A DNA stretch of 64,000 bases from Tsukamurella asaccharolytica (lineage in GTDB: Bacteria > Actinomycetota > Actinomycetes > Mycobacteriales > Mycobacteriaceae). Within the stretch, counting starts at the first letter, position 1. Every line of letters starts with the position of its first letter. A model generated the notes under the pieces. That model searched no databases and was not told where the DNA came from. It saw nothing but the letters and a program-made list of their open reading frames with translations. A program made the translations under genes and the position numbers. Below are positions 42,380 through 46,976 of the stretch, piece by piece. The stretch is taken from NCBI RefSeq assembly GCF_007858435.1, contig NZ_VIGW01000009.1:1-64000 (forward strand). Reading direction: 5' to 3'.

Positions 42380-45088
42380 GTGACTTCAGCGAACTCCTCG
42401 ACCAAGCCCACGATGCTGCTGATCGACGGGCACTCGATGGCGTTCCGCGCCTTCTTCGCGCTCCCGCTCGACGGTGGCCGTTTCCGCACCAAGTCGGGGC
42501 AGCCGACCAACGCGGTGTACGGCTTCACGTCGATGCTGATCAAGCTCCTCAAGGAGGAGGCGCCCGGCTACGTCGCCGCGGCCTTCGACGTCTCCCGCCA
42601 GACCTTCCGCGCCGAGATGTACCCCGAGTACAAGGCGCAGCGCAGCTCCGCCCCGGACGACTTCCGCGGTCAGGTCGACGTGGTCAAGGACGTGCTCGGC
42701 GCCATGGGCATCCCCACCATGGCGCAGGAGGGCTACGAGGCGGACGACATCATCGCCACCATGACCGCGCAGGCCGTGGAGCAGGGCTTCCGGGTCCTCA
42801 TCGTCACCGGCGACCGGGACGCGCTGCAGCTCGTCAACGACGACGTGACGGTGCTCTATCCCCGCAAGGGCGTTTCGGATCTCACCCGGTTCACGCCGGA
42901 GGAGGTGGAGGCGAAGTACGGCCTCACCCCGTCGCAGTATCCGGACTACGCGGCGCTGCGCGGCGATCCCTCCGACAACCTGCCGGGCATCCCCGGCGTC
43001 GGCGAGAAGACGGCCGCCAAATGGATCCGGGAGTACGGAAACCTCGAGGGCCTGGTCACCAATGTCGACAAGGTCAAGGGCAAGGTGGGCGATTCGCTAC
43101 GCGAGAACCTCGCGACGGTGCAGCTCAATCGTCAGATCACCGAGATGGTGCGCGATATGGCGCTGCCCTACGCTCCGGAGGACCTGGCTCTGCAGCCGTG
43201 GAACCGCGAGGCCATCCACCAGCTCTTCGACGACCTCGAGTTCCGGGTGCTGCGCGAGCGCATCTTCACCGAGCTCGCCAGCGCCGAGCCGGAGGCCGAC
43301 GAGGGCTTCGAGATCTCCGGCGGGATCGTCGCGCCGGGCACCGTCGCCGAGTGGCTCGCCGAGCACGGCGCCTCGGGCGCGCGGTCCGGGCTCGGCGTGA
43401 TCGGCCCTGAGGTCGTGGTCGACGGCGACGCGGAGGCCGTCGTCATCGCCGCCCCCGACGGCGAGGGTGGGTACGTAGAGCTCTCGTCGCTGACCCCGCA
43501 CGACGAGGCGGCGCTCGGCGCCTGGCTGGCGGACGAGGCGCAGCCCAAGGCCGCGCACGAGGCGAAGTGGGCGATGCACGCCCTCGGCAGCCGCGGCTGG
43601 ACGCTGGGTGGCCTCACCTCGGACACCGCCATCGCGGCGTACCTGGTACGCCCGGGGCAGCGCACCTTCAACCTGGACGACCTCTCGGTGCGGTACCTGC
43701 ACCGCGAGCTGCGTGTCGAGGCCGCGGGTGACGATGCGCAGCTCTCGCTGCTCGACGACCCGGATGATTCGGCGGGCGAGAAGGCGCAGCAGGCCATCCT
43801 GCGGGCGCGTGCCGTCGCCGACCTGGCGGACGCGCTCGACGGCGAGTTGGACAACATCGAGTCGCGGCCACTGCTCGCGGCGATGGAGCTGCCGCTACTT
43901 CGCGTGCTCGACGTCATGGAGGCCACCGGCATCGCGGTCGACACGGAGCACCTCGAGTCGCTGCACAGCGAATTCAGCGAGCGGATCCGCGCCGCCGAGG
44001 CTGCGGCGTTCGCGGAGATCGGGGAGCAGATCAATCTCGGCTCGCCCAAGCAGTTGCAGGTGATTCTGTTCGAGAAGCTGGGCCTGCCGAAGACGAAGAA
44101 GACGAAGACGGGGTACACCACCGACGCGGCGGCGCTCGAGGCACTCTACGAGAAGGAGCCGCACCCCTTCCTGCAGCACCTCTTGGAGCACCGCGACGCG
44201 ACGCGGCTCAAGGTCACGGTCGAGGGGCTCCTGAAGACCGTCGCCTCCGACGGGCGGATCCATTCGACGTTCAACCAGACGGTGGCGGCCACCGGCCGGC
44301 TTTCGTCGACCGACCCCAACCTGCAGAACATCCCGGTGCGCACCGAGGCGGGCCGGCAGATCCGGCAGGCCTTCGTCGCGGGCGAGGGCTACGAGACGCT
44401 GATGACGGCGGACTACAGCCAGATCGAGATGCGGATCATGGCCCACCTCTCCGGCGACGAGGGGCTCATCGAGGCATTCAACACCGGCGAGGACCTGCAT
44501 AACTTCGTCGGTTCCAAGGCCTTCGGCGTCCCGATCGACGAGGTCACGCCCGATATGCGGCGCCGAGTGAAGGCCATGTCCTACGGCCTCGCTTACGGAC
44601 TTTCGGCCTTCGGCCTCGCAGCGCAGCTGAAGATTTCGCGCGACGATGCGAAGGACCAGATGGAGGCGTACTTCTCTCGTTTCGGCGGGGTGCGGGACTA
44701 CCTGCAGGACGTGGTCACCGAGGCCACCCGCAATGAGTACACGGAAACGATCTACGGCCGTCGCCGGTACCTGCCGGACCTCACGTCCACGAACCGGATG
44801 CGCCGCGAGGCCGCCGAGCGGATGGCGCTCAACGCGCCCATCCAGGGCAGCGCCGCCGACATCATCAAGGTCGCGATGATCCGGCTGCAGGAGCAGATCG
44901 CCGCCGCCGGCCTGCGCTCGCGGATGCTCCTCCAGGTGCACGACGAGCTCGTCCTTGAGGTAGCCGCGGGGGAGCGGGAGCAGCTCGAAGCGCTGGTCCG
45001 CGACACGATGGGCGGCGCCGCGGAACTGTCCGTCCCGCTGGAGGTCTCCGTCGGCTACGGCCGCAGCTGGGACGACGCGGCGCACTAG
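42380..45088 (+). CDS. polA: DNA polymerase I
   Basis: This 902-residue replication and repair polymerase has an N-terminal 5'-3' flap exonuclease domain (about 10-290; VTGDRDALQLVND, GDPSDNLPGIPGVGEKTA), a degenerate 3'-5' exonuclease-like domain (about 310-490), and the polymerase domain. The palm has motif A YSQIEMR with D678, the O-helix region RRRVKAMSYGLAYGLS, and motif C HDE at 854-856. As in most actinobacteria the proofreading residues are not conserved. GTG start at 42380. It is followed by a 200-nt structured region and the reverse transcriptase gene. Confidence 0.98.
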   Translation: MTSANSSTKPTMLLIDGHSMAFRAFFALPLDGGRFRTKSGQPTNAVYGFTSMLIKLLKEEAPGYVAAAFDVSRQTFRAEMYPEYKAQRSSAPDDFRGQVDVVKDVLGAMGIPTMAQEGYEADDIIATMTAQAVEQGFRVLIVTGDRDALQLVNDDVTVLYPRKGVSDLTRFTPEEVEAKYGLTPSQYPDYAALRGDPSDNLPGIPGVGEKTAAKWIREYGNLEGLVTNVDKVKGKVGDSLRENLATVQLNRQITEMVRDMALPYAPEDLALQPWNREAIHQLFDDLEFRVLRERIFTELASAEPEADEGFEISGGIVAPGTVAEWLAEHGASGARSGLGVIGPEVVVDGDAEAVVIAAPDGEGGYVELSSLTPHDEAALGAWLADEAQPKAAHEAKWAMHALGSRGWTLGGLTSDTAIAAYLVRPGQRTFNLDDLSVRYLHRELRVEAAGDDAQLSLLDDPDDSAGEKAQQAILRARAVADLADALDGELDNIESRPLLAAMELPLLRVLDVMEATGIAVDTEHLESLHSEFSERIRAAEAAAFAEIGEQINLGSPKQLQVILFEKLGLPKTKKTKTGYTTDAAALEALYEKEPHPFLQHLLEHRDATRLKVTVEGLLKTVASDGRIHSTFNQTVAATGRLSSTDPNLQNIPVRTEAGRQIRQAFVAGEGYETLMTADYSQIEMRIMAHLSGDEGLIEAFNTGEDLHNFVGSKAFGVPIDEVTPDMRRRVKAMSYGLAYGLSAFGLAAQLKISRDDAKDQMEAYFSRFGGVRDYLQDVVTEATRNEYTETIYGRRRYLPDLTSTNRMRREAAERMALNAPIQGSAADIIKVAMIRLQEQIAAAGLRSRMLLQVHDELVLEVAAGEREQLEALVRDTMGGAAELSVPLEVSVGYGRSWDDAAH

Positions 45089-45123
45089 TCCGCGGTGAGG
45101 TGTGGCAGTCTGAATTCATGCGA

Positions 45124-45273
45124 CGTCGCTCGGGTGAGGTAGGATCTGTGAGATCCGTCCCAGCGGTAACCGCTGGGGGCACCGCACAGTCACACCCTGC
45201 GTCCCACGCCGGCGCGTGCGCTGCGCGCACCACACGGCGCTCCGGGACTCTGTTCCAGGTCACCCGAGCGGCG
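45124..45273 (+). ncRNA. Retron-like structured RNA (putative msr-msd) upstream of the reverse transcriptase
   Basis: This roughly 150-nt region between polA and the RT gene has the layout of a retron non-coding RNA. Two outer segments, CGCTCGGGTGA (45127-45137) and TCACCCGAGCG (45260-45270), are perfect inverted repeats and extend through a G-U pair to 14 bp; they would be the a1/a2 repeats. Inside lie two tight hairpins, GGATCT-GTG-AGATCC (45142-45156) and CCCAGCGG-TAA-CCGCTGGG (45159-45177), in the place of msr stems. A longer interrupted hairpin (45207-45239) sits in the place of msd. The RT start codon lies 15 nt after the region. RNA production and the exact ends are inferred. Confidence 0.55.
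45142..45177 (+). repeat. Two adjacent perfect hairpins (msr-like)
   Basis: GGATCT-GTG-AGATCC has a 6-bp stem and CCCAGCGG-TAA-CCGCTGGG an 8-bp stem; they are separated by 2 nt. They could alternatively terminate polA transcription, but they lie inside the longer inverted repeat 45127-45270. Confidence 0.6.
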
Positions 45274-45287
45274 CTCGCATCCCACGC

Positions 45288-46565
45288 ATGACGTCCGTCG
45301 AGATCGTCCGGCGTCTACCGCGGGCACAGCGGTACGCGATCGCCGATCGGGTCCACCTCCTTGCCGAGGACCTGTGGACCGCGGAGATGATCACGTCGCT
45401 GATCCGAGGCACGGTGCCCGAACACCTGCTGGAGCCCGTCGTCCTGGCGCTTCTGGACGGGCACCCGGAGCCGCCGGTGCGTTTCGTTGACGGCCGACTT
45501 CTGCAGTCGGGTCCGGAGCCGATCGCGGCCGCGCTCGACACCGTCCGCCTCCGCGACACCGTGGCCGCCGGAGACCGCGGCGACGTGCCCGGCCTCGCCC
45601 TGCCCGATGTTGCGGCCGTCGCCAGAATGCTCGACCTCACGATGCCTGAGCTCGAGTGGTTCGCCGATCACGGTCAGTGGCTTCGACATTCGGCTCCGCC
45701 TCTGCGGCACTACCGCGTCCGGCGGATACCGAAGCCGACCGGGGGAGTGCGTGTCATCGAGGCGCCGAAGCCGCGACTAGCCGAGGCGCAGCGGCGGATC
45801 CTGCGGCGCGTCCTCGACCCCGCTGGGGCACATCCTGCGGCCCGGGGATTCCGCCCGGGCGGATCGGTGCTCGCCTACGCCTCGCCCCATGTCGGCAGTC
45901 GTTCGGTGGTCCGGCTCGACCTCCGTGACTGCTTCTCGACGGTCGCGGTGCCCCGCGTCCGGAACCTCTTCCGGCGGTTGGGGTATTAGGCCCCGGTAGC
46001 GACGGTCCTGGCGGATCTGTGCACCGTCGCGACGCCTGCCGACGAGCTCCGCGGCCTCGATGCGTGGCGGGCCGCCACGCTGCGGGCGCGGCACCTGCCG
46101 CAGGGCGCGCCGTCGTCGCCCGCGCTGGTGAATCTGGCGCTGCACCGACTGGATGCGCGGCTCACCGGGCTCGCCCGCGCGCAGGACGCACGTTACACCC
46201 GCTACGGCGACGACCTCGCCATCTCGGGGGCGCGCGATCCGGCGCTGATCGCGGGGGTGGTGCCCACGATCGTGGCGGCGGAGGGGCTATCGGTGAACCC
46301 GCGCAAGACGCGGATCATGCGGGCCGGCGCACGGCAGGAACTCGCGGGCATCGTGGTCAACGCCCGTGCTCAGGTCCCCCGGGCCGAGTACGACGACCTG
46401 CGCGCCCTGCTGCACAACGCGGCCCGTTTCGGCGCCGAGAGCCAGAACCGCGATGGGCACGACGACTTCCGCGCCTTCGTCTACGGCCGGATCGCCTGGG
46501 TCGCCCAGGGCAACGAGCAGCGACGAGCGCGCCTGCTCACCATGGTCGCACGCGTGCGGTGGTGA
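45288..46565 (+). pseudogene. Retron-type reverse transcriptase interrupted by an in-frame TAG
   Basis: The frame from ATG 45288 encodes the first 233 residues of an RNA-directed DNA polymerase, then a TAG at 45987-45989, then 191 more codons in the same frame to 46565. RT motifs are spread over both parts: VRVIEAPKPRLAEAQRRIL and LDLRDCF (210-216) before the stop, QGAPSSP (272-278) and the catalytic YGDD (306-309) after it. The AYASPH segment (196-201) resembles the retron NAxxH motif, and LAGIVVN later resembles the retron VTG region. The part after TAG has no good start codon, so a working enzyme needs readthrough, suppression or a sequencing correction. The N-terminal 130 residues are a helical extension of unknown role. 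Confidence 0.85.
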
Positions 46566-46580
46566 GCAGGCGCAGCGGGA

Positions 46581-46976
46581 CTACTTGGCCTTCGCGGTCG
46601 CGCAGGTGCTGTAGGCGTCCGCCACGGCGCGCTGCACGTTCGCCTGCTCGCCGGCCAGGCTCATGACGCTGCCGGTACCACGGAAGGCGAGGGCGGCCAC
46701 GCGGACCTGGCGGACCAGCCCGTCGGAGGCCGCGATGTCCGCGAACTCCTGCGGTCCGCCGGCAGCCTCCTCGAGACGCTTGGACAGGCCCGGCGACGAG
46801 CGGTCGATCGCGGCCCGCAGCTGACCGACGGTGCACGACGTTCCGGGGACGGCACGCGCGGACTGGGCGTCGGGCTTGGGCGGCGCGGGGGTCGGAGCGG
46901 CGGCGGCGAGGGGCGCGCCGGCGAGGGCGATCGCGCCCAGGACAGCGGCGGTGGCGGCGGTGCGGCGGAAGGTCAT
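46581..46976 (-). CDS. Secreted hemophore-like protein 1
   Basis: This 131-residue exported protein has a Sec signal peptide (1 to about 27, ending in PLAAAAP). The mature part carries the family pattern PGTSCTVGQLRAAI early and a closing ADAYSTC, so one disulfide is likely. Its type is the small helical heme-binding hemophore family of mycobacteria (Rv0203-like). It is convergent with the RT gene. It is the last of three related minus-strand genes; the other two share PGT-C-VGQ motifs. Confidence 0.82.
   Translation of the reverse strand: MTFRRTAATAAVLGAIALAGAPLAAAAPTPAPPKPDAQSARAVPGTSCTVGQLRAAIDRSSPGLSKRLEEAAGGPQEFADIAASDGLVRQVRVAALAFRGTGSVMSLAGEQANVQRAVADAYSTCATAKAK

Follow-up and report, generated by a model that had tools for sequence, protein, structure and literature searches.

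The window, a 64,000-nucleotide stretch of Tsukamurella asaccharolytica DNA, contains a structured RNA followed by a reverse transcriptase (RT) frame that carries one in-frame TAG (Table 1). The RNA/RT pair is placed between polA and a hemophore-related gene, the name of which is taken from a related record. In Tsukamurella congeners, the pair sits between polA and the genes for a HAD hydrolase and an XRE regulator, and in five congeners the same site has neither RT nor RNA but does have HAD and XRE. HAD and XRE are both absent from the window copy of the site; there, only 15 nt lie between the RT stop and the end of the gene that follows (46565–46581), at the place where congeners have HAD and XRE. 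One of the congener loci (NZ_LR134447.1, 48476–65048; L031) lies on a 249,745-base record of Tsukamurella tyrosinosolvens named 'plasmid 5', which has polA and rpsA in chromosomal order and is probably a piece of the chromosome.

Table 1. Features of the RNA/RT locus and its neighbours, in coordinates of the window.
Feature	Position	Strand	Basis
polA	42380..45088		
Putative extended −10 promoter element, TGGCAGTCT	45103..45111	+	7 nt before ATG 45118; conserved pattern
Template-like RNA (msr-msd-like)	45118..45280	+	Covariation, 32 relatives; covariance model match
a1 arm, first codon ATG as predicted leaderless start	45118..45137	+	Consensus fold; start codon pairing
Leader frame, 57 codons, ATG 45118 to TGA 45289–45291	45118..45291	+	Stop overlaps RT ATG (ATGA)
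Candidate priming G directly after a1	45138	+	Conserved A-G columns
Hairpin SL1	45142..45156	+	Consensus fold, covariation
Hairpin SL2, CAGCGGTAACCGCTG type	45158..45178	+	Consensus fold, covariation; variant upstream of most RTs (pattern search)
Long interrupted hairpin, presumed msd template	45203..45246	+	Consensus fold, covariation; copying inferred
a2 arm	45260..45280	+	Consensus fold, covariation
RT frame, TAG-interrupted	45288..46565	+	PADLOC RT_other/RT_outgroup best for both halves; Pfam RVT_1
In-frame TAG, private to window genome	45987..45989	+	Frame reading, congener and relative comparison
YGDD catalytic motif, behind TAG	46203..46214	+	Translation
L-A-G at place of retron VTG triplet	46341..46349	+	Motif comparison
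Hemophore-related gene	46581..46976		Name from related record

The original prediction had described this locus as retron-like, with an inverted repeat that encloses two short hairpins and one longer interrupted hairpin directly before an RT gene. The repeat, formed by CGCTCGGGTGA (45127–45137) and TCACCCGAGCG (45260–45270), is present exactly as claimed, and all three hairpins are found inside it in the Tsukamurella consensus fold. The adjacency to the RT gene also holds, with a spacing from 45270 to the RT ATG at 45288 of 17 nt rather than the 15 nt given. In the consensus fold, the a1/a2 helix extends outward beyond the repeat, so that 45118–45137 pairs with 45260–45280.

The region 45120–45290 folds better than each of 200 dinucleotide shuffles, with a z score of −4.41. 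In addition, an alignment of 32 Mycobacteriales RNAs contains 34 pairs with 97.2% of cells paired, and two-sided changes occur at 18 of these pairs (101 cells). None of 500 shuffles, which leave the relatedness among the 32 RNAs in place, matches any of five covariation measures, and sliding the 3′ partners by 1–3 columns as a control lowers pairing to 34–47%. Relatives were thus found not to lack the repeat and hairpins; because compensatory changes preserve the 34 pairs across the 32 relatives, the aligned sequences place the RNA structure beyond chance. Across 11 Tsukamurella, the RNA region has a mean column identity of 90%, and the RTs of the same set range down to 56% identity to that of the window.

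Directly after a1, an A and a G are each present in 67 of the 71 aligned RNAs, and the next base is mostly A or G, with C in 8. The accepted priming-G contexts that PMC6868368 gives for validated retrons are TAGC, CAGA, CAGC, GAGC and ACGC. A search of Rfam 15 with the RNA returned no match at the gathering score and none up to E 5. A first pattern built on the Tsukamurella motif had no match in 19 other loci, because the sequence differs there; a looser pattern and the covariance model did find the RNA. A more divergent RNA, marked by a GGGGyTACCCC hairpin, precedes the RT of relatives in Pseudomonadota, Planctomycetota, Myxococcota and Acidobacteriota (L091, L093, L096, L097, L100, L101 and L108), and only part of these non-actinobacterial forms reach the covariance model.

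The covariance model was built from 31 of the 32 aligned Mycobacteriales RNAs and run over 66 sources, namely 61 RT loci and five RT-less Tsukamurella loci. At E 0.01 or below, it has a match ahead of the RT in 44 of the 61 RT loci, against 0 of the 5 RT-less loci; at least five of the 44 matched loci are in the model (themselves, as a copy or as a near-copy), and others are close kin. The window, itself among the sequences of the model, is matched at 45128–45272 (E 1.3e-26), and we regard a minus-strand match there (E 0.085) as fortuitous. Across 301 genomes of the family, the RNA is found in 95 (E at most 0.001) and the RT in 97 (E at most 1e-40), and all 95 lie within the 97. The two RT genomes without an RNA match (G026 and G259) have partial RT matches only, of 128 and 229 positions, and in G286 the RNA match covers just 86 nt and lies more than 10 kb away from the RT match. 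The RT frame is stopped or split in five of the 97, namely the window genome (G000, TAG), G194 (TGA), and G063, G251 and G268 (two pieces each). The RT of G277 is spread over two contigs, and several further RT matches come without the N-terminal part.

The RT and RNA on a contig titled Kitasatospora arboriphila (L071) are near-identical to those of Williamsia muralis, and this assembly is probably mislabelled. A Dietzia plasmid with merA (L032, 2849–4298) has the RNA together with an RT that, in the alignment, is missing one conserved stretch of its C-terminal part.

The reading of the locus as a retron-like RNA with its RT is supported by these data: RNA and RT occur together in one genus after another, and the first PDB match of the RT profile is the RT of retron Ec86 (3.6e-55). 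Ec67 and further retron RTs come next, ahead of group II, with Drt2 at 6.3e-8. The PADLOC retron models RT_other (PDLC02949) and RT_outgroup (PDLC03740) are the best matches for both halves of the window RT and span most of its N-terminal extension. Both models are also best for the tabulated congener, ahead of RT_XIII, and both are matched by all 14 RTs scanned. The motifs reported for the frame (LDLRDCF, QGAPSSP, YGDD and AYASPH) are all confirmed, and a placement of the RT in a non-retron group was looked for in PADLOC and PDB, where retron RTs proved nearest. NCBIfam matches of three RTs fall under the cut-offs.

The RT group departs from most retrons at two motifs. Among 84 RTs, the commonest patterns of region X are mostly [Y/F]AxPH, with Y or F replacing N (AYASPH in the window), and those of region Y are mostly L[A/T]G (LAG in the window), in place of the NAxxH and VTG typical of retron RTs. 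According to PMC6868368, NAxxH in region X and VTG in region Y are each present in 14 of 16 validated retrons, with two retrons deviating at the N of NAxxH and two from VTG at one residue. Since two validated retrons also deviate at the N, NAxxH is typical of retrons rather than defining.

In a tree of the 84 RTs, the eight Tsukamurella rows group together (100/100), and the tree largely follows genera, which suggests that inheritance of the RT is mostly vertical; two Rhodococcus loci bear a wrong phylum label in the tree output. A phage origin was considered and set aside: the 41 relatives in IMG/VR are all at or below 39% identity and none matches before query residue 97, and the 17 matches in a phage collection are partial and do not exceed 43%. 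The N-terminal 120 residues of the RT (45288–45647) evolve much faster than the RT domain. The dN/dS of this extension is 0.33–0.88 in seven of eight pairs and 0.19 in the closest pair, and that of the RT domain before the TAG is 0.08–0.18.

The original prediction had seen no adjacent toxin-like effector gene and had proposed that the N-terminal extension could serve this role. The first point is borne out, as up to 5 kb of flank at 80 loci, called with our own simple gene caller, contain no constant effector gene beyond genus synteny. The second is not supported, since nothing tested speaks for an effector role: Pfam gives only RVT_1 in both halves of the window RT, a PDB search with the first 108 residues of one relative gave no match up to E 10, and the fast evolution of the extension is no evidence for a toxin. 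HAD and XRE were rejected as partners because the five RT-less congeners keep them at the site and the window has neither; in each of the ten congeners with an RT, HAD adjoins the RT side. The genes between RT and HAD in Tsukamurella were likewise rejected, as they are not constant among genomes. By eye, five genomes have a small predicted membrane protein in this interval, two others (L020 and L021) a patatin-like frame and one an HNH-like frame, and both the patatin-like frame and the small membrane protein are absent at RT-less Tsukamurella sites.

The gene 3′ of the RT, as found by our gene caller, varies among genera. A protein of 1053–1133 residues, named DnaE2-like by eye, is found in the flank of 16 loci (including L039, L045, L086, L089 and L104), mostly from Williamsia and also from Kibdelosporangium and Actinokineospora; in L039 this gene ends just before the RNA. 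DNA polymerase genes thus adjoin the element in two groups, as polA in Tsukamurella and as the DnaE2-like gene in the 16 loci, perhaps by chance.

A pair of RT and RNA without a constant effector in its flanks could also be a two-component system like DRT9 or DRT10, where the defence would consist of the RT and the DNA that it makes, and classical 2′–5′ priming would play no part. Published RT and RNA systems without a separate effector exist in the literature consulted, and the missing NAxxH and VTG would fit such a system. However, the RT is nearest to retron RTs, as indicated by the PDB values for Ec86 and for Drt2, the DRT protein that entered the comparison. Like retron RNAs, moreover, this RNA is flanked by a1/a2 arms, with an A-G immediately following a1. 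We therefore regard a DRT9/DRT10-like system as improbable. Because msDNA is a prediction here, and because NAxxH and VTG are not found, we place the locus in an untyped, effector-less retron group and not in a typed defence system.

The TAG separates the catalytic YGDD from the upstream part of the RT, as the original prediction had stated. The RT frames of the ten RT-bearing congeners are open over 460–610 codons and free of this TAG in 10 of 10, and the corresponding column is a sense codon in all seven relatives compared. The dN/dS behind the TAG is 0.087–0.156 for the window versus three relatives, which fits the suggestion of a recent inactivation and resembles that of five stop-free pairs (0.117–0.207). 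The RNA, the promoter element and the leader frame of the window are intact. The preserved frame and selection on either side of the TAG could also reflect readthrough, with the RT being made in this strain. We consider this very unlikely: polA next door itself ends in TAG (45086–45088), which argues that TAG is a normal stop here, and the RT frames of the ten congeners are unbroken. A search for suppressor tRNAs that covered the 64-kb window found no tRNA there. From the comparison of frames, the TAG is probably a recent loss of the RT or an assembly error of the draft, recent inactivation being the simplest reading.

Retrons are usually described as an untranslated template RNA, an RT and an effector. 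In this group, a putative extended −10 element of the pattern TGN[CT]ANNNT precedes the model start by 18–50 nt in 45 of 69 loci, with 41 of these at 25–27 nt, against a mean of 2.26 and a maximum of 6 in 200 mononucleotide shuffles. As judged from sequence only, this spacing would make an ATG or GTG the beginning of the transcript, a codon that in most loci precedes the model start by 10 nt. From this codon (RTG), a leader frame that the original prediction did not mention runs through the RNA; in the window, it begins at ATG 45118.

The position of the leader stop was counted in 64 Mycobacteriales-type loci, with an exact overlap defined as NTGA or TGATG and with seven loci of other phyla left out. 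The stop exactly overlaps the RT-frame start in 43 loci and lies within 8 nt of it in 10, and the leader is in frame with the RT in 2; in the remaining nine, leader and RT share a frame but are separated by a stop (2), there is no overlap (6) or the start is missing (1). Other frames in the same count give exact overlaps in 13 of 67 and near ones in 5, and a separate count gives 6 of 69 exact. The leader frame stays open beyond the end of the RNA in 60 of 63 loci, compared with 32 of 69 for other frames. Five of the seven left-out loci have no ATG or GTG there, or only a short frame from another position. We fetched 40 further loci from the family genomes, of which 13 had already been seen and 27 were new; the latter comprise 15 exact, 7 near, 1 in frame, 2 with none and 2 without such a frame, and other frames are exact in 6 of 28. 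The contrast is smaller here (15/25 versus 6/28, p 0.006), and the p value overstates it, since many of the loci are close kin.

The leader is unlike a gene in composition. Variable columns number 17, 16 and 15 at the first, second and third codon positions, which have GC fractions of 0.67, 0.72 and 0.68; such absence of codon periodicity is allowed for a coupling frame and is expected also for an accidental one. Lineages differ in the frame that crosses one and the same hairpin (49, 8 and 2 loci, with 2 not assigned), and the start/stop context is kept in 42, 7, 2 and 2 loci of these groups, or 53 of 61. The start/stop context alone is common, being found at 61 of 128 stops of other frames, and context together with openness is found at 18 of 128. 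Only 3 of 61 loci have an SD-like motif ahead of the leader stop. PMC6728339 regards overlaps of the ATGA and TGATG type as sites where coupling may occur. Because the peptide is not conserved and frames differ between lineages, selection seems to act on a coupled open frame and not on a peptide.

Two alternatives bear on this frame. Firstly, the locus may be an ordinary retron with an untranslated RNA, where frame and overlaps are by-products of high G+C, ancestry and conservation of the RNA. The absence of periodicity and of gene-like GC by codon position is in keeping with this, as are the openness and exact overlaps that other frames reach in both sets of loci. Nevertheless, both measures are higher for the leader frame in the main count, the promoter element at a fixed distance would put the first base on RTG, the overlap is kept despite lineage-specific frames and varying leader length, and in two loci the leader is fused in frame to the RT. 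We thus view an untranslated RNA as rather unlikely. Secondly, the RNA-encoded peptide could be the product itself, an effector or a regulator, given that the frame is open in nearly all loci and no other effector was seen. The peptide sequence and even its frame change between lineages, however, and variable columns are spread evenly over codon positions; a functional leader peptide was dropped as the main reading, and we give it very little weight.

The start codon of the leader falls within the a1 arm. In single-sequence folds, its first base is paired with a U of the 3′ part of the RNA in 30 of 38 ATG loci and unpaired in 8, and among 25 GTG loci it is paired with C in 17 and with U in 6 and unpaired in 2. 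This pairing of the first base to the 3′ part, in folds of 63 loci, suggests that the folded RNA hides its own start codon.

Taken as a whole, the locus is retron-like in architecture and in RT kinship, as far as its sequence goes. We favour, as the probable explanation, an effector-less retron of mycolic-acid actinobacteria, the template RNA of which would also be a leaderless leader cistron. One transcript would carry both the template RNA and the RT, would start with AUG or GUG and would be read as a leaderless message. The ribosome would traverse the RNA, halt at AUGA and re-initiate on the RT, mostly without a recognisable ribosome-binding motif. With its start codon sequestered in the a1/a2 helix, the folded RNA would block its own translation, and the template RNA and RT synthesis would limit each other. 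The RT would bind the folded RNA, prime from the G after a1 and copy the long hairpin into a short msDNA, its length limited to about 80 nt by the spacing between SL2 and a2.

A further step, which we put forward only tentatively, is that the transcript acts as a fold-or-translate switch, being either translated from its first base to yield the RT or folded to serve as the msDNA template. With no effector gene, a disturbed balance, such as when a phage takes over translation or cuts RNA, could then be the signal or the output itself. What is new here is the leader frame running through the template RNA; the titles and opening abstract lines listed in our literature search, a set that does not extend to Mestre 2020 and Khan 2024, contain no description of a translated or leaderless retron RNA. 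If the effector-less retron with a leader cistron is true, a large actinobacterial group without a constant effector would change the view of how retron expression is set, and translation and msDNA would be joined by a testable link. Engineering inserts that break the leader frame should, in that case, lower RT production.

We know of no effector gene for the myxobacterial retrons Mxa1 (Mx162), Mxa2 (Mx65) and Sau1. As described in PMC6868368, these retrons share with the present group an N-terminal RT extension and vertical inheritance; the Mx162 transcript is given there as 241 nt, compared with about 163 nt for the RNA here, and the likeness is drawn from their published descriptions. The typed retrons I–XIII (for example Eco1/Ec86) resemble the group in the RT core and in an RNA with a1/a2 arms before the RT. 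The group differs from them in having no effector in a constant neighbourhood, L[A/T]G for VTG and a leader frame through the RNA. The PADLOC models RT_other and RT_outgroup are protein-only, and the RNA family, its linkage to the RT and the leader frame come from the present analysis.

The leader itself is closest to the small ORFs that Shell 2015 (PMC4633059) describes in mycobacteria, which are leaderless and coupled; leaderless messages are reported for mycobacteria. As in the examples described there, an RTG stands at the transcript start (here predicted), the small ORF is coupled to the next gene, and the linkage is kept while the peptide is not. By sequence, the leader shows the same marks, with a putative promoter for a start at RTG and a stop/start overlap mostly without an SD motif. 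Unlike the mycobacterial small ORFs, however, the small ORF here coincides with a conserved structured template RNA whose predicted fold pairs the start codon.
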